This document shows, piece by piece, positions 6,347-36,147 of a DNA stretch of 64,000 nt. The stretch covers positions 1-64,000 of the forward strand of contig NZ_JABAHY010000003.1 of NCBI RefSeq assembly GCF_012641515.1. The letters run 5' to 3'. Each line of letters starts with the position of its first letter. The stretch's first letter is position 1. Source of the stretch: Nesterenkonia sedimenti (GTDB taxonomy: Bacteria; Actinomycetota; Actinomycetes; Actinomycetales; Micrococcaceae). The translations under genes were made by a program, and so were the position numbers. Under the pieces are notes generated by a model. That model had not been told where the DNA came from. It saw nothing but the letters and a program-made list of their open reading frames with translations, and did no database searches.

Positions 6347-7926
6347 GAGTTCTGCCCGCCTGTGGGTCCGTCACTGCCGGGGCCCTCATAGCCGCCGTCG
6401 AGGAGTTTCTTGAGTTCCTCGTCGATATTGGCCGCCTCCTGCTGCCGCTCTTCACGGCGGCGGTGGAAGCCCTGGGGGTCGTCGAGGTCAGCCTCATCGG
6501 GCTGGACATCGGGATGGGACCAGACCTCATCGCGGCCGGCGGCACCATCGGTCTCGCGCAGATGTGCCCAGAGTGCGGCGGCATCGCGCAGCCGGCGGGG
6601 CCGCAGCTCGAGGCCGACAAGTGCGGCGAAGGTGGCCTCTGCCGGCCCACCGCTGGCCCGACGGCGGTTCATAGTCTCGCGCAGCTTCTCCAGGGAGGGC
6701 AGGTGGGATCCGGCCTGGGCGACGACGTCGTCCACCCAGCCTTCCACCAGCGCCAGGGTCGTTTCGATCCGGCGCAGTGCTGCCTCCTGCATCGGCGTGC
6801 GGTCGGTCTGGAAGAGACCGTCGCCGAAGAGGTCCTCCATCTCCTGGGGATTGGAGGGGTCGATCTGGCTTGCGGCCTCTTCGATCCGTTCCATATTGAT
6901 GTGGATTCCGGCGGCATACTGGGCCACGGCGTTGAAGAGATCATCCTGCAGCCAGGGGGCGCGGATGAACAGCCGCATCCGGGCGGCCTCACGCAGGGCG
7001 AGGTAGAGCAGGATCTCCTCGTCCTCGACCTGCAGGCCCTCACCGAAGGCTTTGATATTCGCCGGGATCAGGGCCATAGTGTCCCCGGCCAGGGGCAGGC
7101 CGATATCGGAGGCCGAATGCACCTCGGCTGCCAGCTGTCCGATGGCCTGGCCGATCTGGGTGCCGAAGGCCATCGAGCCCATCCGCTCCATCATGGAGGC
7201 CATCTGCCCGGCTGCATCCGGCGGCAGCATGCCTTTGAGCTCCTCGGGGATATGTGCGCCGTCGCCGTCCTCGAGCTGCTGGCGGACCACCTGGGCCATG
7301 GCCCGGCCCACGGATTCGGCCACCGGGGTGGTCAGCCGCTTCCAGGATTCGAAGGTCTGCTCAATCCACTGCCGGCGGCTGTAGCCCTGACCGATCGCGC
7401 CCACTGCCTCGAAGCTGGTGGCGTCATTAAGCCACATCTCGGCCAGCCGGAGGGCGTCGTCGATCTGTTTGGACTCCGCCGGGGTCACCGATGCGTCATC
7501 GGAGCCGATGGCGGAGACGGCGGCGTTCTTGGCCAGATCCCAGTTGATGGTTTCCTCGCCATCCTGGTTCTGCATGGCGGAGAACATCGCCTGTACCTGG
7601 CCCATGATCTGCTGCATCATGGCCGGATCGGCGCCGAATGCGCCCAGCTGGCTGGGATCGAATTGGCTCGGGTCGAAACCGGGTGGGAAGCCGGGGAAAC
7701 CACCGGCCTGGCCCTGGTCGCCTGAGGACCCGGCCCCGGGGTTGCCGGTGAAGCCCATAGAGGGGCCTCGGTTTGTGGAACCCTGGTTATCGGCGTCGTC
7801 GTTCTTATCGTCTTCACCGCCAGGCTCAGATTTCTCACCGAAGGCTTCGCCGAAGAGTTTGCGCAGGAACTCCTCTTCATTGCCTCCGCGGTCTTCGCCG
7901 GAGTGACCGTCGGACTTATCCGTCAT
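6343..7926 (-). CDS. Zincin-like (DUF2342/TIGR03624-type) protein, probable pseudo-protease
   Basis: 527 aa from the ATG at 7926, chosen because AGGGAG lies 9 bases upstream; the open frame runs about 70 codons further without family-like sequence. The N-terminus is Gly/Asp-rich, followed by Pro/Gly segments (FPGFPPGFDPSQFDPSQLG) and an alpha-helical body. The family is named as a zinc-dependent metalloprotease or putative hydrolase. The position expected to carry HExxH reads LREAARMRLF, so both zinc-binding histidines are Arg and only the Glu is kept. The protein therefore may not bind zinc in the classical way. It is coupled to the downstream PDZ protease and may be a partner or regulator (inference). 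Confidence 0.85.
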   Translation of the reverse strand: MTDKSDGHSGEDRGGNEEEFLRKLFGEAFGEKSEPGGEDDKNDDADNQGSTNRGPSMGFTGNPGAGSSGDQGQAGGFPGFPPGFDPSQFDPSQLGAFGADPAMMQQIMGQVQAMFSAMQNQDGEETINWDLAKNAAVSAIGSDDASVTPAESKQIDDALRLAEMWLNDATSFEAVGAIGQGYSRRQWIEQTFESWKRLTTPVAESVGRAMAQVVRQQLEDGDGAHIPEELKGMLPPDAAGQMASMMERMGSMAFGTQIGQAIGQLAAEVHSASDIGLPLAGDTMALIPANIKAFGEGLQVEDEEILLYLALREAARMRLFIRAPWLQDDLFNAVAQYAAGIHINMERIEEAASQIDPSNPQEMEDLFGDGLFQTDRTPMQEAALRRIETTLALVEGWVDDVVAQAGSHLPSLEKLRETMNRRRASGGPAEATFAALVGLELRPRRLRDAAALWAHLRETDGAAGRDEVWSHPDVQPDEADLDDPQGFHRRREERQQEAANIDEELKKLLDGGYEGPGSDGPTGGQNS

Positions 7927-26849: not shown

Positions 26850-28100
26850 GTGACCGCAGTATCCCCCGCCTTCTGGAACCCCCAGGCGCATATGCCCACC
26901 GTGATGGACCGGCAGGTCGTCATCGAACGCGGTGAGGGCGCCTACGTCTACACCCAGGATGGCCAGCGGCTGTTCGATGGTTCGGCCGCGCTCTGGTACG
27001 CGAATGTGGGCCATGGTCGGGCCGAAATCGCCGAGGTGGCCGCCGAGCAGATGCGGAAACTGGAGACTTACCACACCTTCGGACGCTATGTGAATGACCA
27101 GGCTCAGGCGCTTTCGGAGCGGCTGCGTGAGCTGGCGCCGATGGCCGATGCAAAAGTCATCCTCAACGCCGGTGGCTCCGATGCTGTGGATGTAGCCTGC
27201 AAACTGGCCCGCCGCTACTGGCAGGTCGAAGGTGCCCCGGCTAAGAAGATCATCCTCTCCCGGGAGTCCGCCTACCATGGGCTCCACGCCTATGGCACCT
27301 CAGTGGGTGGGCTGGATTTCAACCGTGAGGGCTATGGCACCGAATCCCTGATTCCGGAGACCGCCCGGGTCTCCCGTGATGACATCGAGGCCGTTGAGGC
27401 GGAGATCCTGCGCATTGGGCCGGAGAATATTGCGGCCTTCATCTCCGAGCCGATTATGGGAACCGGTGGTGTGCATCCGCCGGCCCCAGGGTATTTGGAG
27501 GGGCTGCAGCGGTTGGCCGCTGAGCATGACTTCCTGCTTATCGCCGATGAGGTGATCACTGGTTTCGGCCGAACCGGGCAGATGTTCGCCTCCCAGCGGT
27601 ATAACCTCAGCCCCGATATTGTCACCATGGCCAAGGGCATCACCTCCGGCTATGCCCCGCTGGGCGGCATCCTGGTGGCCCCGCGAGTCTGGGAGCCCTT
27701 CTTCACCCGTGGGGCTGAGTCTCCGGTCTACCGGCATGGCACCACCTATTCCGGGCATGCCACCTCCTGCGCTGTGGCGATGAAGAACCTGGACATTCTC
27801 GAGGCAGAACACCTCGTGCAGCGGGCCAAGGAGCTGGAGACGGTGCTGGCTGAGGCCACCACCGTGCTGGAGGGCCACGCTTTGGTGAAGGATATTCGGG
27901 TCGGCGGCTTCCTGGCCGGTATTGAACTGGATCCGGCCATCAGCGGTGAGGCCCTGGCCGATACGCTGATTGAGCGCGGGTTCATCTTCCGCCCGCTTCC
28001 GGGCAATAACCTGCAGATGAGCCCACCCTTTGTGACCACTGACAGTGAGGTTCACACGGCGGTGAAGGCGATTAAGGACGCCTTGGATACCGCTGCCTAA
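26850..28100 (+). CDS. Class III PLP aminotransferase inserted in the haem cluster
   Basis: 416 aa, GTG start with AGGGAG about 8 bases upstream. Class III signatures: VILNAGGSDAVDVACKLAR, SAYHGLHAYGTS, LIADEVITGFGRTGQM and the PLP-lysine site TMAKGITSGYAPLG. Omega-aminotransferases of the beta-alanine/taurine/GABA/putrescine groups look like this; the donor cannot be decided. It is related to HemL in fold but lacks HemL's [10 protein letters not shown]-terminus. It stands in reverse orientation between hemD and hemB, and its 3' end overlaps hemD by 29 bases. Confidence 0.88.
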   Translation: MTAVSPAFWNPQAHMPTVMDRQVVIERGEGAYVYTQDGQRLFDGSAALWYANVGHGRAEIAEVAAEQMRKLETYHTFGRYVNDQAQALSERLRELAPMADAKVILNAGGSDAVDVACKLARRYWQVEGAPAKKIILSRESAYHGLHAYGTSVGGLDFNREGYGTESLIPETARVSRDDIEAVEAEILRIGPENIAAFISEPIMGTGGVHPPAPGYLEGLQRLAAEHDFLLIADEVITGFGRTGQMFASQRYNLSPDIVTMAKGITSGYAPLGGILVAPRVWEPFFTRGAESPVYRHGTTYSGHATSCAVAMKNLDILEAEHLVQRAKELETVLAEATTVLEGHALVKDIRVGGFLAGIELDPAISGEALADTLIERGFIFRPLPGNNLQMSPPFVTTDSEVHTAVKAIKDALDTAA

Positions 28101-28806
28101 GGACATCGACGACGCCGGCCGCTGTGGGTTCGGCGAGCACGGCATCGGCGGGCCGACCCCGCTGATTCAGCGTGAGGGCAGTGGGTTCTCCGATGGCCAA
28201 TACGGTGATCTCCGGGGTATCCAGCTGCGCCCAGACCTCTGCTGCAATGGAGCTGGTGATCAGCACCGTATCCCCCCGGCTGAGCTGGTCTGTCTCCGGA
28301 TGGGGCAGGGCCACTGTGGCATAGGCAGTGACCCAGGTGATTTCCCAACCCCGCTCTGCCAGCCCCTGGGCCAGCTGGGATCGGGCCTGGGCTGATTGGG
28401 GCAGCAGTAGCCTGTCGCTGGTCTCGGGTGCAGGCAGCTCGGCGAGGATTCCTGCCGCACTGTGCTCGGCTGGCATCCATACCTGGGTCAGACCTGTGAG
28501 CTCCTCGAGGACCCGCGCTGTTCCGGGTCCGACGACGCCGATCTGCGTGGTCTGCGGAACGCTGCCGTCCCACCCAGCCTCTATCAGCGACCGCACAGTG
28601 TTCCCGCTGGTCAGCAGCAGCCAGCTGAACTCCCCTGCAGCCAGCTGATCAAGCGCAGCCCTCAGCTGTCCCATGTCCTGGGGCAGTACCTGTTGTGTCA
28701 GTGGGAGATGGTCCACTGCATAGCCGGCATCTCTCAGCCCGGACTCCAGCGCCCCGGACTGTTCAGGGTTCCGGGTCAGCAGGATCTTCTCGGGGGCAGC
28801 TGCCAT
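28072..28806 (-). CDS. hemD: Uroporphyrinogen-III synthase
   Basis: 244 aa, normal for HemD, a poorly conserved family. Recognised from the start KILLTRNPEQSGALESGL, from WLLLTSGNTVRSL and IGVVGPGTARVL, and from its place right after hemC (15-base gap). It closes and inverts ring D of hydroxymethylbilane to make uroporphyrinogen III. Its last 29 bases overlap the convergent aminotransferase gene. Stable protein alignment is needed to confirm catalytic residues, which are not strongly conserved in this family. Confidence 0.88.
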   Translation of the reverse strand: MAAAPEKILLTRNPEQSGALESGLRDAGYAVDHLPLTQQVLPQDMGQLRAALDQLAAGEFSWLLLTSGNTVRSLIEAGWDGSVPQTTQIGVVGPGTARVLEELTGLTQVWMPAEHSAAGILAELPAPETSDRLLLPQSAQARSQLAQGLAERGWEITWVTAYATVALPHPETDQLSRGDTVLITSSIAAEVWAQLDTPEITVLAIGEPTALTLNQRGRPADAVLAEPTAAGVVDVLRQRYPRRP

Positions 28807-28821: not shown

Positions 28822-29841
28822 CTAGGAGTCGACGACGTGTTTGAGCAGGCCTTTGTCCTCGGCCAGTAGGGTCTCGGCGACCTCGGCTCCCAAACGGGCA
28901 GCCTCGTCCACGGCCACATCCCGGTCAGCCCCCATGGAGAGGTGAATCTCGGCCCCGGCCCGCTGGGATTCCGAGCCGTCGGGGGCGCAGACCACTGTGT
29001 CCAGCCGGAGTCGGACTCCGCCGTCGGGCTCATCGGTGGCCCGGGCCAGCCCGCCGATAGGTGCCGCGCAGCCGGCGTTGAGCCGGGCCAGCAGGGCGCG
29101 TTCAGCGGTGGTCTCCAGGCGGGCTTCCATATCCTCCAGGGTCGCCAGACCCACGCCCAGTGGGGCGGTGATCGCTGCATCGGCGGCCCTGACCTCCACG
29201 GCGAGTGCTCCCTGCCCGGGGGCGGGGGTCATCACCTCGGGGGCCAGCAGTTCGGAGATATGGTGCTCCAGACCGAGGCGAATAAGCCCTGCCCCGGCAA
29301 GCACCACGGCGTCGAGGTCTCCGCGTGGGGAGTCCCCGGCCTGGGGTGATTTCTCACCCGCATCCTCCCGACCACGGACTCGGGCCAGGCGGGTGCCCAC
29401 ATTGCCGCGGATATCGACGATCTGCAGATCACTGCGGGCGGCCAGCAGCTGAGCTGCTCGGCGCGGGGATCCGGTGCCGATCTTGGCACCGGAGGGCAGT
29501 TCCTCAAGGCTGAGGTCATGGGCCGAGCAGAGGGCATCGCGGACCTCTTCACGCTGCGGGACTGCGGCAATGGCCAGTTCCTCAAGATCCTTAGCCGGCA
29601 GGTCCTTCAGGGAGTGCACGGCCACATCGACCTCGGAGTCCAGCAGGGCTTTGCGCAGGGCTGCGGCAAAGACGCCGGTTCCGCCCAGCTGGCTCAGCGG
29701 TCCGGTGAGCACATCTCCTTCGGATTTGATGGTCACTAGCTCGTAGTCGAATCCCGCGCCGGTGGCCAGTGCCTCGGCGGCGGTGGTGGACTGGGCCAGG
29801 GCCAGCTTGGACCCGCGGGTCCCTACTCGGAATGTCTGCAT
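28822..29841 (-). CDS. hemC: Hydroxymethylbilane synthase (porphobilinogen deaminase)
   Basis: 339 aa. RVGTRGSKLALAQS at the start and VHSLKDLPA are family signatures. Cys258 in LNAGCAAPIG is the residue that carries the dipyrromethane cofactor. It polymerises four porphobilinogens into hydroxymethylbilane. ATG start, 23 bases after the end of the ferrochelatase gene, and 15 bases before hemD. Part of the minus-strand hemE-cgoX-chdC-cpfC-hemC-hemD series. Confidence 0.96.
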   Translation of the reverse strand: MQTFRVGTRGSKLALAQSTTAAEALATGAGFDYELVTIKSEGDVLTGPLSQLGGTGVFAAALRKALLDSEVDVAVHSLKDLPAKDLEELAIAAVPQREEVRDALCSAHDLSLEELPSGAKIGTGSPRRAAQLLAARSDLQIVDIRGNVGTRLARVRGREDAGEKSPQAGDSPRGDLDAVVLAGAGLIRLGLEHHISELLAPEVMTPAPGQGALAVEVRAADAAITAPLGVGLATLEDMEARLETTAERALLARLNAGCAAPIGGLARATDEPDGGVRLRLDTVVCAPDGSESQRAGAEIHLSMGADRDVAVDEAARLGAEVAETLLAEDKGLLKHVVDS

Positions 29842-29864: not shown

Positions 29865-31025
29865 CTAGCTCCCCTGCAGCGGGGTGCCCCAGCCGCCGTC
29901 GGTGGTGAGGTCGCTCCAGTCACCGGGGACAGTCTGTTCACCGGTGGCCAGCGGCTGGCCTTCGGCTCCGGTGATGTATTCGCCCATGATGTCGACCAGT
30001 CCGGAGACGAACTCGGGGTGCACGCCCACAGTCGGTGCCCGGTGGAAGGCCAGGCCCTGCTCCTCGGCGGTCTCCTTGGCCTCAGTGTCGAGGTCCCAGA
30101 TGACCTCCATATGATCGGAGACGAACCCAAAGGGCACGACGACGACGCCGGCGTAGCCGTTCTGGGCGTCCTCTTCGATCTGGTCGTTGATATCCGGTTC
30201 CAGCCAGGGGGTTTCGGGGCTGCCGGAGCGGGACTGGAAGACCACCTGGTAGTCCACATCCTTGGCTTCGGGCACTGCCTGCATGAGGTAGTCGGCGATT
30301 GCCTGGTGCTGGGCGGTGTAGACGTCGGTGCCGAAGAGTTCCTTGATCCGCGCCGGTCCCTGACGCTCTGCCACGGCGGAGGGGATGGAGTGGGTGACGA
30401 ACAGGACCTTGGTCTTGCCCTCGGAGCCCTTCTCGCTCAGCTGCTTGCTGACATCGCTGAGACCGGCGCTGAGGAATTCCTCATTGGGCTTGGTGAAGGC
30501 TTTGTCGTAGAAGAACTGACGGACCTTGACCAGGTTGAGTTCCCCGCGCAGGCCGGTCTCGTCCAGGGTGCGCTCGAAGTCCTCGAGGTACTGGTCATTG
30601 CTGGAGTATCCGGCGTAGGCGGAGGTCACCAGCACCAGCACATCGCGGTGGCCGCCCTGGTGCATCTTCTTGAAGCTGTCGGCGAAGTAGGGGTCCCAGT
30701 TGCGGTTGCCCCAGTAGATCGGGATGTCGATCTCTCGTTTGGCCAGCTCGGTCTCCAGGGCGGCGATGAGGTCGCGGTTCTGCTCGTTGATAGGGCTGAT
30801 GCCGTCATTGGCCCGGTAGTGGGTGGCGACCTCTTCGAGTCGCTCATCGGGGATTCCTTTGCCGCGGGTGACGTTACGCAGGAAGGGGATGACGTCATCC
30901 TGGCCTTCGGGGCCGCCGAAGCTGGCCAGCAGGATGGCGGTATAGCTGCGGCGTTCGCCTTCGGCGGGGGTCTGGGCGACGTAGTCGGCGGGCAGTGCTT
31001 TGGCGGCGGGTGCGGTGCTGCTCAT
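29865..31025 (-). CDS. cpfC: Coproporphyrin ferrochelatase
   Basis: 386 aa (HemH family). ILLASFGGPEGQDDVIPFL, YWGNRNWDPYFADSF and LFVTHSIPSAVAER are family blocks, the last with the metal-site His. In actinobacteria the enzyme inserts iron into coproporphyrin III, just before ChdC, and the neighbouring chdC and cgoX genes fit this. The translated protein has no cysteine at all, so it cannot hold the [2Fe-2S] cluster that many actinobacterial ferrochelatases carry. It begins 2 bases after the chdC stop, implying tight coupling. Often annotated hemH. Confidence 0.93.
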   Translation of the reverse strand: MSSTAPAAKALPADYVAQTPAEGERRSYTAILLASFGGPEGQDDVIPFLRNVTRGKGIPDERLEEVATHYRANDGISPINEQNRDLIAALETELAKREIDIPIYWGNRNWDPYFADSFKKMHQGGHRDVLVLVTSAYAGYSSNDQYLEDFERTLDETGLRGELNLVKVRQFFYDKAFTKPNEEFLSAGLSDVSKQLSEKGSEGKTKVLFVTHSIPSAVAERQGPARIKELFGTDVYTAQHQAIADYLMQAVPEAKDVDYQVVFQSRSGSPETPWLEPDINDQIEEDAQNGYAGVVVVPFGFVSDHMEVIWDLDTEAKETAEEQGLAFHRAPTVGVHPEFVSGLVDIMGEYITGAEGQPLATGEQTVPGDWSDLTTDGGWGTPLQGS

Positions 31026-31027
31026 GA

Positions 31028-31810
31028 TCAGGAGAGGACCTCGAGGATGTCAGTGGTGTTGGGCAGTCGGCGTCCGGTGTAGAAGGGGGTTTCGTCCCGG
31101 ACGTGGTATCGGGTTTCGGATTCGCGGAGCTTGCGCATCATATCCACGAGATCCGTGAGTTCGGGGGCTTCCAGTGCCAGCAGCCATTCCCAGTCGTTGA
31201 GGGCGAAGGCGCTGGTGGTGTTCGCCAGCACCGAGGGGAACTCCTGGCCGAGCTGGCCGTGTTCGCGCAGCATGGCACCGCGTTTGGCGGGGTCCATGAG
31301 GTACCAGTCGTAGCTGCGGTTGAAGGGGTAGACCACCAGCCAGTCCTCGGCCTCGACTCCGCGGGTGAAGGCGGGCACATGGGCACGGGCGAACTCCGCA
31401 GTGCGGTGGACCCCCATTGCGGAGAAGGCAATCTCGGTCTGGTTGAGCAGCTCGGTGCGGTGCAGCTGGCGCAGGGCGGCCTGGAGCTTTTCGGCCTTAT
31501 GGCCGGTCAGCCACAGCATGATGTCGGCATCGGCGCGCATTCCGGAGACGTCATAGGTCCCGCGCAGTTCGACGGCATCGTCGTCGGTTCCGAGTCCTTC
31601 TCCGGCCAGGGCGGCCACGGCCTCTTCGAACTCGGCGGTGATCTTCTCGGCTTTACGGCCGCTGGGAGCTTCATTACGGTTCTTGGGCTCCCACCAGTCC
31701 GTGGCAGAGCGGGTCTCGGTCCGCTGAAAGACGGCGAACAGGGTATACCAGTCCTTACCGGAGGAGTTGACCTCTTCAGGGGTGCGCTTAGGGTTGCGGC
31801 CGTAGCTCAT
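31028..31810 (-). CDS. chdC: Coproheme decarboxylase (HemQ, chlorite dismutase-like)
   Basis: 260 aa from ATG 31810 (GTGGAG upstream, family N-terminus SGKDWYTLFAVFQ); the frame is open a further 40 codons. The motif YPFNRSYDWYLMD contains the catalytic tyrosine region and LREHGQLGQEF the region of the proximal haem histidine. It converts coproheme to haem b, the last step of the coproporphyrin-dependent route. Located between cgoX and cpfC. A perfect dyad (31842-31860) sits 32 bases upstream of the start, a candidate operator, with a TAGAGT -10-like box near the start codon. Confidence 0.93.
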   Translation of the reverse strand: MSYGRNPKRTPEEVNSSGKDWYTLFAVFQRTETRSATDWWEPKNRNEAPSGRKAEKITAEFEEAVAALAGEGLGTDDDAVELRGTYDVSGMRADADIMLWLTGHKAEKLQAALRQLHRTELLNQTEIAFSAMGVHRTAEFARAHVPAFTRGVEAEDWLVVYPFNRSYDWYLMDPAKRGAMLREHGQLGQEFPSVLANTTSAFALNDWEWLLALEAPELTDLVDMMRKLRESETRYHVRDETPFYTGRRLPNTTDILEVLS

Positions 31811-31841: not shown

Positions 31842-31860
31842 CTTCTACACGGCGTAGAAG
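31842..31860 (-). promoter_or_regulatory. Dyad operator candidate upstream of chdC
   Basis: Perfect 7-bp inverted repeat CTTCTAC-ACGGC-GTAGAAG (plus-strand reading), overlapping the likely -35 region of chdC. The core TTCTAC-N5-GTAGAA recurs, with one changed base in one arm, over the hemA promoter (34651-34667). The regulator is unknown; iron- or haem-responsive control would be a natural guess. Confidence 0.5.
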
Positions 31861-31949
31861 ACCGCTTGGCGGTGTTCATTCCCTCAATCGCCTTGGAAGC
31901 CCCCGAGCGAGCTCGGGTCTCCTCTCGGCTCAATTGGCAGCAGAAACAC

Positions 31950-33326
31950 TTACTTCAGGAGGCTCTGAATGACCTCGCGAGCATCGGGGATGATCTGCGC
32001 TAATCCGGTCCCGGCATAGGACTCCCCCACCACGGCGATCCGGGTGCCAGTCTGCGCGGATGTGGCCAAGCTCTCGCGCAGACTCCTGGCTGCTTCGCTG
32101 GCCGCACCACGGCGCCAGCGCACCACCGTGTGGTCCAGAACCCGCTCGGGGCTGATCGAGGTTCCGGTCAGCCACGGGAGATCAGTCAATGCGGCGGCAT
32201 GCAACTGCTCATCGGTGGAGTCAAAGCCCAATCCACCGGTCTCTCCGGCCCGACCATAAGAGAGCCGCAACAGGTGGTGGCTGGAGCCGAGGTTCTCCTG
32301 CAGCGCCTCAGCGGCCCAGCTCCATTTGGCCGAGATATGGGTCATCGCCTTAGCCCGGATATCGGTGACCTGCGGGGCCACCAGCATGCCGGTCCCCCGC
32401 GGATGGGAGTCCAGCTCCGGGGCGTGGACCAGCAGGCTCACCAGGGCCACACCAGTTCCAGTCTGGGCGGCCGGCGGTGTCTGCTGCACAGGCTGTTCGT
32501 CTCCGCCGATGAGCTGGGCTGCCTGTGCGGCATCGAGGGCGGGGACGACGACGTCGTAGTCCCCTTCCCAGAGGAAATGGCTGTCGGAGTGACGCAGGGA
32601 GTGGTTCAGGTGGACCTGGGCGCCGAGTTCGGCCAGCTGCTCCTGCAGTGCGGTGACCAGAGTGTTCATCCCGCCGGTCAGGGACTGCACGGCCGAGCCC
32701 GCCGGCGCTGAGGCGCGGATTCCGGCCACGGCCCGGGCTAGGGAGCCTTCCTCCAGCATCCGGTCGTAGAGCTTGGGGTGGGCGGTGCGGATGCTCAGCT
32801 GGTGGGGTCCGGCTGAGTGGACTCCGGTGGTGATCGGTGCGACCAGCCGGTCCACTACCGCAGAGCCCATGCGGTCGGCCACCACCTCACCGAGGGTCGG
32901 CGCCTGCCCGGGTGTCCAGGTCATCTCCGCGGTGAGATCCTCGGCGGCGCGCCGGGCAGCCTCTGGTCCCAGGAGTGCGAGGACATCTGCGGCCTCGGGG
33001 TCCCCGGGGATGCCCATGATGCCGGTTGCCGGCAGTGGGGCGGCCAGCTCGGGCAACTGCAGCCAGGCCCCTGCCGGATTCGGAGACACGATGCGTTCGG
33101 CCAGTCCGAGCTCCGAGAGGAAGTCCCGGACCGCTGGGGTACGCGTAGCAAAAGCTTCAGCCCCAGCATCGGCCTTTATCCCGGCAAGCGCCACGGGTGC
33201 GATGGAGCCGCCGAGGCGGTCAGTGGCCTCGAAGAGCTCAACCGCGGCTCCGCTGCGGGCAAGCTCCCAGGCTGCGGTCAGCCCGGCGATACCCCCACCG
33301 ACGACGGCGGCCCGGGGCTGGCTCAT
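31950..33326 (-). CDS. cgoX: Coproporphyrinogen III oxidase (HemY-type)
   Basis: 458 aa. N-terminal FAD-binding Rossmann motif AAVVGGGIAGLTAAWELARSG followed by the LFEATDRLGGSI block, and a C-terminal FAD motif VVGESYAGTGLAQII. This is the oxygen-dependent HemY/CgoX family, which in gram-positives oxidises coproporphyrinogen III to coproporphyrin III. Older annotations call it protoporphyrinogen oxidase (hemG/hemY). ATG start; hemE lies 112 bases upstream with palindromes between, so it may have its own promoter. chdC follows after 139 bases. Confidence 0.93.
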   Translation of the reverse strand: MSQPRAAVVGGGIAGLTAAWELARSGAAVELFEATDRLGGSIAPVALAGIKADAGAEAFATRTPAVRDFLSELGLAERIVSPNPAGAWLQLPELAAPLPATGIMGIPGDPEAADVLALLGPEAARRAAEDLTAEMTWTPGQAPTLGEVVADRMGSAVVDRLVAPITTGVHSAGPHQLSIRTAHPKLYDRMLEEGSLARAVAGIRASAPAGSAVQSLTGGMNTLVTALQEQLAELGAQVHLNHSLRHSDSHFLWEGDYDVVVPALDAAQAAQLIGGDEQPVQQTPPAAQTGTGVALVSLLVHAPELDSHPRGTGMLVAPQVTDIRAKAMTHISAKWSWAAEALQENLGSSHHLLRLSYGRAGETGGLGFDSTDEQLHAAALTDLPWLTGTSISPERVLDHTVVRWRRGAASEAARSLRESLATSAQTGTRIAVVGESYAGTGLAQIIPDAREVIQSLLK

Positions 33327-33356
33327 CGGGGCACCTCGCAGCCGTCCATTTCAGAC

Positions 33357-33420
33357 CTTCCCAGCGACATTCCATCTTCCGGGCGAAATTTCGCGAGGAA
33401 ACTACAATACGGCTGGGAAG
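33357..33420 (-). promoter_or_regulatory. Palindromes in the hemE-cgoX gap
   Basis: A perfect 12-bp palindrome GCGAAATTTCGC (33383-33394) sits inside a wider inverted repeat, CTTCCCAGC (33357-33365) and GCTGGGAAG (33412-33420). On the minus strand, TATTGT just upstream of the inner palindrome could be a -10 box of a cgoX promoter. These may be an operator for cgoX or a processing/termination structure after hemE. Confidence 0.4.
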
Positions 33421-33438
33421 ACTCGGGCGGCATAGGGC

Positions 33439-34578
33439 TCACGGTTCGATGGAGTGGATGAGCTCCACGACCCGGGTCAGCACCTCGGGGTCAGTCTCCG
33501 GGGGCACACCGTGGCCGAGGTTGAGCACATGACCGGCGGCACCGGAACCTGCTTCGACCACTTTGCGCACGTGGTCCTCCAGCACGGAGAAATCTGCTGG
33601 CAGCAGGGCAGGGTCAATATTGCCCTGCAGCGGGGTGTCCGCGCCCAGGCGGCGGGTGGCCTCAGCGAGATTCAGCCGGTAGTCGATGCCGACCACATCG
33701 GCACCAGCGGTCTTCATCAGATCCAGGACCTCACTGGTGCCGGTTCCGAAGTGCACCAGCGGGGCGGTGACTCCCTCGACACCCTGCAGGCCCCGGACAT
33801 GTTCCAGGGCTGCGGTTGAATGTGGCAGAACATGGCGCTGGTAGTCCTCCCGCCCCAGGGAGCCTGCCCAAGAGTCGAAGAGCTGTGCGGCAGAGGCGCC
33901 TGCCTCCAGCTGGGCGCGCATAAAACGCCCCGAGGCCTCAGCGGCCCATTCGGCCAGGGCGGCCCAGGTCTCCGGATCGGCATGCATCATCGTGCGCGGT
34001 CCGAGGTGGTCCCGGGAGGGCCGGCCTTCGACCATATAGGCCGCCAGTGTGAAGGGGGCTCCGGCGAAGCCGATCAGCGGCACGGCAGTTCCGTCGGGGC
34101 CGAGGGTGTCCAGTTCGGCCACTGTCCGCTGGACGGCCTCGGTGATGGGGGCGAAGGCGTCGTCGTCGATTTTTGGCAGCGCGACGACATCGGCGGCGGT
34201 ACGTACCGGGGAGCCCAGAACTGGGCCCACACCGGGTTTGATCTCCACATCGATGCCGGCCAGGCGCAGCGGGATGACGATATCGGAGAAGAAGATCGCA
34301 GCGTCCACATCATGGCGACGCACCGGCTGCAGGGTGATCTCGCTGGCCATCTCCGGATCCAGGCAGGAATCCAGCATGCTGGTGCCCTCGCGCAGCTTCC
34401 GGTACTCCGGCAACGACCGGCCGGCCTGGCGCATGAACCACACGGGGCGACGGCTGGGCTTGGCGGTCTCCCCTGCACTATTACGCGAGCCCCGGTACTG
34501 ATTGATCAGCGGCGCATCGGCAGTGCGGCCGGTGGCCAGGGGATGGTCGGCAGGCAGCTGGGCGGAAGTCATATCCAC
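33439..34578 (-). CDS. hemE: Uroporphyrinogen decarboxylase
   Basis: 379 aa from GTG 34578; ATG 34572 is just as likely. RPVWFMRQAGRSLPEYR with its substrate-binding Arg/Gln residues, ILPLRLAG-like VIPLRLAGIDVEI and the C-terminal NLGHGVPPETDPE are family signatures. It removes four carboxylates from uroporphyrinogen III to give coproporphyrinogen III. First gene of the minus-strand haem series, divergent from hemA across 99 bases. No strong ribosome site is visible. Confidence 0.95.
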   Translation of the reverse strand: MDMTSAQLPADHPLATGRTADAPLINQYRGSRNSAGETAKPSRRPVWFMRQAGRSLPEYRKLREGTSMLDSCLDPEMASEITLQPVRRHDVDAAIFFSDIVIPLRLAGIDVEIKPGVGPVLGSPVRTAADVVALPKIDDDAFAPITEAVQRTVAELDTLGPDGTAVPLIGFAGAPFTLAAYMVEGRPSRDHLGPRTMMHADPETWAALAEWAAEASGRFMRAQLEAGASAAQLFDSWAGSLGREDYQRHVLPHSTAALEHVRGLQGVEGVTAPLVHFGTGTSEVLDLMKTAGADVVGIDYRLNLAEATRRLGADTPLQGNIDPALLPADFSVLEDHVRKVVEAGSGAAGHVLNLGHGVPPETDPEVLTRVVELIHSIEP

Positions 34579-34650
34579 ATTGTGCCAGGGTTTGTCCCAC
34601 GGTCGCGGATGTCACATCTTCGCTGAGAGCTCAGCTGTCCCACATCCGGT

Positions 34651-34668
34651 TTCGACACGCTGTAGAAT
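34651..34668 (+). promoter_or_regulatory. hemA promoter -10 with overlapping dyad
   Basis: TTCGAC (34651-34656), five bases, GTAGAA (34662-34667): the same layout as the chdC dyad. The right arm overlaps a -10-like TAGAAT (34663-34668). A start about 7 bases downstream would fall at or near the hemA GTG at 34678, which has no ribosome site, so a leaderless mRNA is likely. A repressor bound here would block the promoter. Confidence 0.5.
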
Positions 34669-34677
34669 ATAAGCGCC

Positions 34678-36147
34678 GTGGTTCTCTTTTCACTTGTCGC
34701 AACCCACTCAGATCTTGACCTGGAGACGGTCGGGACTCTCTCCTCAGGAGCGGCCGATGTCGCCGCTTCTGTGAGTCTGCCTGCCGTCACGCTGGCCACC
34801 TGCAACCGCATGGAGATCTACGCGGAGGCTCCGGCCGATTCCCCCGATGCCGTTGAGCACAGCCGCGAGCAGTTGCTGGAAGCTGTGGCTGAGTCCTCCG
34901 GGTTGGACAAAGAGACCGTAGCCAATTCTTTCCGTGTGCTGGTCGACGATGCTGCCGTCAAGCACCTCTTCGAGGTCGGGGCGGGCCTGGACTCCGCGGT
35001 CATTGGTGAACGCGAGATCGCCGGCCAGGTCCGGCGTTCGCTCAGCGAGGCCCAGACTGCCGGCACCGCATCCGGGTCCCTGACCAAACTCTTTGAGTCC
35101 GCCACCCGTGCGGCCAAGGAGGTCGGGGCTAAGACTGCCCTGGGCGCCCGTGGGCGCTCGATTGTGTCGGTGGCACTGGATATCGCCGGTGATATGCGCG
35201 GCGATGGCGCCCAGTTCTACCGGGATGCCCGCGTGGTCCTCATCGGCACCGGCGCCTATGCCGGGACCTCCCTGGCCCAGCTGGGCGAGCGGGGCGTGCC
35301 GGATATTTCGGTGTTCTCCGGTTCCGGCCGCGCCGAGCAGTTCCTGGCCGAGCGCGGTGAGGCCTTGGCTGAGCGTGGCAGCACCGCTCGCGCCCTGCAG
35401 ATGGACCAGCTGGCTGAGGCTTTCCGTTCCGCTGATGTGATCATCGGCTGCTCCGGGGGCAACCGGCAGATCACCGCCGCTGAGATCCGCTCCCTGGCTG
35501 GACTCGATGAGCGGCAGGAACCGCTGACCGTCATCGATCTCGCCCTTTCCCATGACTTCGCCCCCGATGTTGCTGATCTTCCCGGGGTTGACCTCATCAC
35601 TCTGGAGTCGGTGAAACTCGCCGCCCCGGATGAGACGGAGTCCTCCCTGGAACAGGCCCGTTCGGTGGTGACCGATTCGGTCCAGCAGTTCCTCTCCGAG
35701 CGTGCTGAACGCAGCGCCGATGACGCCATCGTCACCCTGCGCCGCCATGTCCAGTCCCTGCTGGATGAGGAGATGGAGAAGGTTCGAAAGCACCACGGCT
35801 GCACTGCCGCGGCCGAGGAGGTTGAATTCGGTCTGCGCCGGATCGTGCGCAAACTGCTGCATACTCCCACGGTGCGCGCCCGCGAGCTGGCCGCCGAGGG
35901 CCGCGGTCAGGATTATGTGGCCGCCTTGGAGACCCTGTTCGACCTCAAGGTTCCCAGCGCGGAGGACACTCAGCGCACCTCTGCCCCGCGGCGTCGTCGT
36001 GCCGAAGAATTCTCCGCAGCTGAACTGGCACAGATGGCCAATTACCTGCAGCAGGTCCCAGATGGTGGGTTCTGCCGCCACCATAAACCGGGCGAATTCA
36101 GTGTTGAGCGCTTCGAGGCGCTCAACCAGCTGCGCCGCAGCGCCTGA
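34678..36147 (+). CDS. hemA: Glutamyl-tRNA reductase
   Basis: 489 aa, GTG start. TLATCNRMEIYAEA contains the catalytic Cys42. The middle has the NADPH Rossmann region (VVLIGTGAYAGTSLAQLG) and GCSGGNRQITAAEIRSL. The C-terminal dimerisation helices follow. It reduces glutamyl-tRNA(Glu) to glutamate-1-semialdehyde, the committed and usually regulated step of the C5 route. Divergent from hemE. The segment after residue 435 is more basic and is a lineage-specific tail (RRRRAEEFSAAELAQM). Confidence 0.95.
   Translation: MVLFSLVATHSDLDLETVGTLSSGAADVAASVSLPAVTLATCNRMEIYAEAPADSPDAVEHSREQLLEAVAESSGLDKETVANSFRVLVDDAAVKHLFEVGAGLDSAVIGEREIAGQVRRSLSEAQTAGTASGSLTKLFESATRAAKEVGAKTALGARGRSIVSVALDIAGDMRGDGAQFYRDARVVLIGTGAYAGTSLAQLGERGVPDISVFSGSGRAEQFLAERGEALAERGSTARALQMDQLAEAFRSADVIIGCSGGNRQITAAEIRSLAGLDERQEPLTVIDLALSHDFAPDVADLPGVDLITLESVKLAAPDETESSLEQARSVVTDSVQQFLSERAERSADDAIVTLRRHVQSLLDEEMEKVRKHHGCTAAAEEVEFGLRRIVRKLLHTPTVRARELAAEGRGQDYVAALETLFDLKVPSAEDTQRTSAPRRRRAEEFSAAELAQMANYLQQVPDGGFCRHHKPGEFSVERFEALNQLRRSA

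Follow-up and report, generated by a model that had tools for sequence, protein, structure and literature searches.

The repressor family of BlaI and MecI is known mainly from antibiotic resistance; in staphylococci its members are paired with the membrane proteases BlaR1 and MecR1. In mycobacteria, BlaI is reported to bind the promoters of cytochrome bd and of the ATP synthase, and its BlaR partner is described as having no beta-lactam sensor (PMC5473688). BlaI binding and repression at Rv1303, atp operon, are reported in a 2025 paper (PMC12565901), one review names BlaI as a regulator of the atp operon (PMC5874750), and a paper on sigma-C counts the atp genes among the predicted members of the BlaI regulon (PMC7924339). 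Within the accessible portions of the literature searched, including PMC8765290 and PMC4301838, the operator sequence of mycobacterial BlaI was not found. Here, we describe two inverted repeats of the form TTCTAC-N5-GTAGAA, which precede the haem-synthesis genes chdC and hemA in a 64,000-nucleotide stretch of the Nesterenkonia sedimenti genome (contig NZ_JABAHY010000003.1, positions 1 to 64,000; the window). As judged from sequence, these dyads are very probably operators of a BlaI/MecI-family winged-helix repressor, which is encoded elsewhere in the genome and would control respiratory genes, haem synthesis included.

The predicted chdC operator, CTTCTAC-ACGGC-GTAGAAG, is a perfect inverted repeat at positions 31842..31860 on the minus strand. 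Between it and the ATG (31810) of chdC lie 31 bases; chdC (31028..31810, minus strand) encodes coproheme decarboxylase/HemQ (NF042928, 289.6 bits against a cut-off of 235; PF06778). The predicted hemA/hemE operator, TTCGAC-ACGCT-GTAGAA, has one mismatch to the consensus and is located at 34651..34667 (plus strand), between the divergent hemE and hemA; it ends 10 bases 5′ of the GTG start of hemA (34678..36147, plus strand), the gene of glutamyl-tRNA reductase (NF000750, matched from residue 1, and TIGR01035, both above cut-off). Both predictions are based on sequence, motif counts and conservation. The positions of the dyads and the names of the two genes are as an earlier note on this DNA had given them, except that it placed the chdC repeat 32 bases before the gene; its agreement of 14 bases in 18 is near enough to our count, in which the two 17-mers, both with a five-base spacer, are identical at 14 of 17 positions. 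All start codons are predictions: mechanical calls gave 34771 for hemA and 31819 for chdC, the GTG at 34678 and the ATG at 31810 were used, and an alternative mechanical open reading frame (ORF) starting at TTG 31933 would cover the chdC dyad. Allowing two mismatches, the window contains five matches where 0.28 would be expected by chance; each of 100 shuffles gave fewer than five. The remaining three matches, at 7568, 57424 and 62754, lie within ORFs and are probably due to chance.

The genome of N. sedimenti contains 13 perfect sites and 11 sites with one mismatch, 24 in total, versus 8 matches (≤1 mismatch) to the reversed pattern. All 13 perfect sites are located outside ORFs as called, 7–135 bp before a predicted start. 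The perfect copies thus avoid coding DNA as called, contrary to the random occurrence there that the earlier note had named as a refutation. Seven of the one-mismatch sites precede a gene, namely hemA/hemE, ctaC, atpB, SURF1 (or a glyoxalase-like gene), a protein of 131 residues, CarD or a lipoprotein, and a 66-residue ORF before CtaG-CopD; the other four fall within coding sequence or at its end, probably by chance. For the dyad itself, chance was ruled out by the shuffles, the genome-wide enrichment, the placement outside ORFs and the near-absence from genomes without BlaI (see below).

Ten of the 20 upstream sites lead genes of haem, oxidase, cytochrome c or ATP synthase, one leads blaI and nine lead other genes. 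In addition to chdC and hemA/hemE, there are eight putative respiratory targets: ctaB, for haem O synthase (TIGR01473, score above cut-off); genes of an ABC ATPase and a permease, with ctaA behind them (haem A synthase, PF02628); ctaC and ctaE, for subunits II and III of an actinobacterial aa3 oxidase (both above cut-off); SURF1 (PF02104); a CopD-CtaG fusion (Pfam); a ResA-like thioredoxin (NCBIfam match below cut-off), behind which lie DsbD-TM, ResB and proteins of cytochrome c assembly; and atpB of the ATP synthase (profile matches), whose site sits within the 3′ end of atpI. Neither a beta-lactamase nor a penicillin-binding protein gene was present among the genes scanned beside the 20 sites, a scan that covered the adjacent genes and few of those further down the operons.

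The blaI gene is located outside the window (G000:C1:420160-420495) and is itself preceded by a perfect site. It encodes a 112-residue protein with the Penicillinase_R winged-helix domain of the BlaI/MecI family (PF03965, 87.9 bits; gathering threshold 22.6). The best solved match is 2g9w (E 5.5e-17), which we take to be the mycobacterial BlaI, the entry being titled conserved hypothetical protein; the MecI and BlaI chains 1okr and 1sd4 also match. Assignment as a CopY/TcrY copper repressor was rejected, TIGR02698 giving 35.7 bits, far under its cut-off of 121.95. A second BlaI paralogue, 35% identical, is encoded in the same genome (G000:C1:57608-57913), and second copies exist in eight other genomes of the genus. 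Of 30 genus genomes, 28 encode a close homologue of BlaI; the remaining two are 65% and 82% complete. With at most one mismatch, a site lies upstream of blaI in 28/28 genus loci (within 300 bp) and in 23/23 best loci of other genera (within 450 bp); the control stretches for blaI were invalid because random stretches could contain a real site.

Adjacent to blaI is a gene for an M48/M56-type membrane metalloprotease with an HExxH motif, as expected for this family. In 61 of 62 loci (28 of the genus, 23 from the rest of the family and 11 of 28 from the phylum) the pair is kept, with the protease gene behind blaI and on its strand; some of the matches are partial. The motif residues His192, Glu193 and His196 are each conserved in at least 95% of the 59 rows compared. 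Cys160 (L027 6642-7586) is kept to the same extent and, from its conservation, could possibly be a redox or metal switch. In N. sedimenti the protease is 315 residues in length, it matches M48 above and M56 below cut-off, and its membrane helices were judged by eye. The Pfam scan gave only these M48/M56 matches and no penicillin-sensing or penicillin-binding domain, which sets the pair apart from classical BlaI-BlaR1.

The dyads before chdC and hemA are conserved to different degrees. The 300 bp upstream of each gene were compared in 30 genus genomes. For chdC, the best match there has no mismatch in 18, one in 10 and five in 2; for hemA no perfect site was found, and the best match has one mismatch in 19, two in 4, three in 1 and four to six in 6. 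At most one mismatch is thus seen at chdC in 28/30 and at hemA in 19/30, and at most two at hemA in 23/30, compared to 0/300 (chdC) and 2/300 (hemA) control stretches of coding DNA at ≤2 mismatches. Absence of the motif from close relatives, the other refutation named by the earlier note, was not what we found: it is kept at both genes in most of them, less fully at hemA, and this conservation supports the idea of one operator and one regulator common to both genes. Outside the genus, a ChdC of another genus served as query, and its 30 best loci have zero mismatches in 28 cases and one in 2; in 20 further BlaI-bearing genomes from many genera, hand-picked and not a random draw, 16 have at most two. 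Among named genomes, the closest relatives of HemA are those of N. muleiensis (80% identity) and N. ebinurensis (79%); the matches listed for the HemA query in the named genome collection comprise eight from Nesterenkonia, one from Arthrobacter (52%) and 71 remoter loci, which were unused. In one genus genome (G016, L214), hemA is broken into six matching pieces, one of which contains a stop, and chdC into two, which fits a poor assembly (62% complete).

At hemA, a putative –10 hexamer TAGAAT (34663..34668, plus strand), identified by inspection, overlaps the right arm of the operator and is 9 nt from the GTG; such an overlap is plausible. Counted by eye, TAGAAT stands at the matching place in 22 of the 30 genus hemA rows. 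The spacing between hexamer and GTG (34663-34678) suggests that the message may be near-leaderless.

The same motif and many of the same targets are found in related genomes. All 24 genus genomes searched contain 16–32 sites (≤1 mismatch), versus 5–11 for the reversed control; for 14 genomes of other families the numbers are 0–5 and 1–10, respectively. Two further Nesterenkonia genomes, G003 and G008, were read at 20 and 16 stretches. Among the matches listed for them, most N. sedimenti targets recur, not each in both; ctaB, ctaC, SURF1, ResA, atpB, the ABC gene, blaI and chdC recur in both, and each of the two has, in addition, a pair of operators at the gene of cytochrome bd subunit I (PF01654) and a site at sdhC (TIGR02970 above cut-off). 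This target reading left out C1:164853 (hemA), C1:371135, C3:17184, C4:125657 and the TACTAC match C11:72399 of G003, and C11:13295, C57:122837 and C64:2952 (chdC) of G008; the hemA and chdC genes of both were read in the 30-genome comparison instead. In three genomes of other genera (18 stretches), chdC, the ABC gene, blaI-cydA and a relative of the 131-residue protein are present in all, whereas ResA, a pyridoxamine-oxidase-like gene and a flavohaemoglobin (NF009805 below cut-off; globin and reductase domains) were seen in one each. Sites at cytochrome bd and ATP synthase genes, the trait of a mycobacterial-type regulon, thus occur before cydA in relatives and before atpB in N. sedimenti and two other genus genomes.

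In N. sedimenti, the CydA query matched nothing at E ≤ 1e-40; 134 of 149 family genomes have a match. The 30 best cydA loci of the family all have a divergent blaI, with two or three operators between the genes; the blaI start is 132–377 bp from that of cydA, and adjacent operator copies beside cydA are 18–26 bp apart, mostly 23–25. These tandem operators suggest that control is tightest at blaI-cydA. The divergent arrangement was also seen in two further families (L399, no mismatches; L400, two).

Genomes without BlaI provide the contrast. In the family comparison, the site pattern was TWCTAC-N5-GTAGWA and the threshold for a BlaI match was E ≤ 1e-8. BlaI is absent from 18 of the 149 genomes; zero sites were found in 16 of these 18, versus one (G137) of the 131 BlaI-bearing genomes. 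The contrast repeats inside genera g20 and g35, where 4/4 BlaI-bearing genomes have a site before cydA; none of the 11 cydA loci of BlaI-less genomes (g17, g20 and g35) has a site (≤2 mismatches) within ∼500 bp. All 18 BlaI-less genomes possess chdC, and none has the dyad (≤2 mismatches) beside it; at three mismatches two of them have a match, compared to 10 of 150 shuffled stretches.

Comparison of 215 distinct perfect sites, drawn from the loci compared, gave the form of the operator. Counting both strands, 84% of the sites begin the spacer with a purine, and the middle three bases are free, which yields the consensus TTCTAC-R-NNN-Y-GTAGAA; the flanks of the 20 N. sedimenti sites show little conservation. 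TACTAC-N5-GTAGTA was ruled out as the genus consensus, with 1–8 matches (≤1 mismatch) per genome versus 11–33 for its reversed control in 30 genus genomes; among the genus TACTAC-type matches listed, most are mixed TTCTAC/TACTAC sites. Two TACTAC-type dyads 19 bp apart were observed in another family (L052; G051:C1:1880942 and 1880961), in a 3-kb locus with no BlaI match. In a phylum-wide search, 28 BlaI-like loci were recovered, of which 4 have an upstream match with at most two mismatches and 5 one with three. The five belong to one more distant family (BlaI identity 43–47%), and all read TACGAC-N5-GTAGTA, in which the spacing is as in TTCTAC-N5-GTAGAA and the outer arm differs.

In the mechanism that we propose, a BlaI dimer would bind TTCTAC-N5-GTAGAA with one arm per protomer, and bound BlaI would block start-proximal respiratory promoters. 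The haem set under its repression would consist of hemA/hemE, chdC-hemH-hemC-hemD, ctaB and the ABC operon ending in ctaA. The oxidase and other set would consist of ctaC, ctaE, SURF1, CtaG, the resA operon and atpB, joined in relatives by cytochrome bd and sdhC, and BlaI would also repress its own gene. When respiration is impaired, with oxygen, nitric oxide, copper or quinone redox state as the possible cue, the protease would remove BlaI, leading to joint induction. The sites, the genes that they lead, their conservation and their co-occurrence with BlaI come from computation. BlaI binding and co-transcription are inferred, and repression, cleavage and signal are modelled on what the family is expected to do.

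Several observations weigh against this reading. Nine of the 20 upstream sites stand before genes with no obvious role in respiration (SDR/DUF3099, universal stress protein, pyridoxamine-oxidase-like, BNR-repeat, lysS, CarD or lipoprotein, and three proteins without a Pfam match). The Fisher value for co-occurrence of sites and BlaI, 2e-18, ignores shared descent, and all 18 BlaI-less genomes fall into three genera (g17, g20 and g35); two of them retain sites (G108 two, G192 one). The BlaI-bearing set includes four g33 genomes whose BlaI matches are all distant (E 5e-14 to 9e-11) and which have one site each. Across the phylum, 19 of the 28 BlaI-like loci have no match better than four mismatches, though many of these are distant paralogues. 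The chdC site is missing in two of the 30 genus genomes and, at ≤2 mismatches, in 4 of the 20 further BlaI-bearing genomes; both BlaI-bearing g20 genomes read have four mismatches before chdC. No recognisable hemA dyad (≥4 mismatches) is present in six of the 30 genus genomes, one of them with a fragmented gene. Part of the right arm at hemA is probably held by the promoter as a –10, because two rows without the left arm retain GTAGAAT.

A different transcription factor might bind the motif, blaI being merely one of its targets and lost together with it. This would account for the site that blaI itself carries, and binding by BlaI is a prediction from sequence; we nevertheless consider it distinctly unlikely, since it requires a second regulator lost from the BlaI-less genomes as well, in genera that keep chdC and mostly cydA. 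The equally spaced TAC/GTA dyad also recurs before blaI in the distant family, and a TAC/GTA core is a general trait of BlaI/MecI operators, which the dyad suits.

The earlier note had read the dyad as a candidate operator of a haem regulon; on that reading, a haem or iron sensor would be the likely binder. Haem genes do carry the dyad, at both chdC and hemA/hemE, and that part stands; as a description of the regulon it is too narrow, haem synthesis being one branch of a respiratory regulon. Only two of the 20 upstream sites (chdC and hemA/hemE) serve haem b synthesis and 18 lead other genes, and the dyad precedes blaI and co-occurs with the BlaI gene, which makes a dedicated haem or iron sensor very improbable. 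A reading without any regulator, in which the repeats would be mobile elements, structural elements or –10 fragments, is hardly credible, despite the resemblance of the hemA right arm to a –10 (TAGAAT), given that both arms are kept over the 215 sites while the middle spacer bases are free, that flanks are little conserved, and that the copies track particular genes and the presence of BlaI.

Control by a BlaI-type repressor, our preferred reading, is of a kind already known, because mycobacterial BlaI has been reported at cytochrome bd and ATP synthase promoters. The closest system is BlaI-BlaR of Mycobacterium tuberculosis (Rv1846c-Rv1845c), with which the Nesterenkonia pair shares the sensorless partner protease, cytochrome bd and ATP synthase as reported or, here, predicted targets (PMC5473688) and the best solved match, 2g9w; different from it, the Nesterenkonia sites also lead genes of haem synthesis, haem O/A, aa3 oxidase and cytochrome c maturation. 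PetR-PetP of Synechocystis likewise combines a BlaI-like repressor and a BlaR1-like protease in the control of electron-transport genes, but its targets are the copper-responsive plastocyanin/cytochrome c6 switch (PMC7896320). The staphylococcal BlaI/MecI systems with BlaR1/MecR1 are alike in sequence (1okr and 1sd4) and in the paired membrane protease; the Nesterenkonia protease differs in having no penicillin-binding domain, and the targets are different. HrrSA, from the actinobacterium Corynebacterium glutamicum, also controls the expression of terminal oxidases and the response to haem (PMC7337898), but is a two-component system. Among the open-licence papers listed, judged by titles and opening lines of abstracts, we did not meet a BlaI regulon with a haem/aa3 branch, this operator form or the family-wide blaI-cydA arrangement; PMC10581053 was a spurious match through the name blaIII, and PMC8265638 contained none of the terms sought. 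The first two of these features therefore look new.

What emerges is a concrete and testable wiring diagram of the way in which the supply of haem and the assembly of oxidases may be co-ordinated in one bacterial family. It suggests a reason for the mycobacterial BlaR without a beta-lactam sensor, and its missing signal could be sought in harmless soil bacteria. Tentatively, and with more doubt than confidence, actinobacterial BlaI and its sensorless BlaR-like protease might at root be a respiratory master regulator that takes its cue from membrane redox state, copper or haem and co-ordinates cytochrome bd, aa3 assembly, haem supply and ATP synthase, with beta-lactamase control a later add-on in some lineages.

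The haem genes of the window are clustered around the two operators. Downstream of chdC on the minus strand are hemH (ferrochelatase, 29865..31025; NF000689 and TIGR00109 above cut-off), hemC (hydroxymethylbilane synthase, 28822..29841; TIGR00212 above cut-off) and a hemD-like gene (uroporphyrinogen-III synthase, 28072..28806; NF004593 E 3e-21, under its curated cut-off). As only 2 bp separate them, hemH is presumably co-transcribed behind chdC. On the same strand are a protoporphyrinogen/coproporphyrinogen oxidase of the hemG/hemY type (31950..33326; TIGR00562, 99.4 bits, cut-off 97.85) and hemE (uroporphyrinogen decarboxylase, 33439..34578; TIGR01464 above cut-off), which is divergent from hemA and starts 72 bp from the hemA/hemE operator. 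The genes around chdC and hemA also include hemB.

Some of the other targets deserve mention. lysS (lysine–tRNA ligase) has a perfect operator 16–17 bp upstream in two species (G000:C56:180828 = L034 6029; L309 3001), and a respiratory reason is not evident. Proteins of 131, 132 and 212 residues (L041 4083-4478, L031 4065-4463 and L029 4025-4663) behind an operator have no Pfam match and recur in other genomes; they are candidates for new respiratory factors. Operators also precede genes for a universal stress protein (G000:C23:186352), a pyridoxamine-oxidase-like protein (G000:C56:113043) and a calcium-type P-ATPase (G003, L311 8355), which together resemble the mycobacterial hypoxia (DosR) set.

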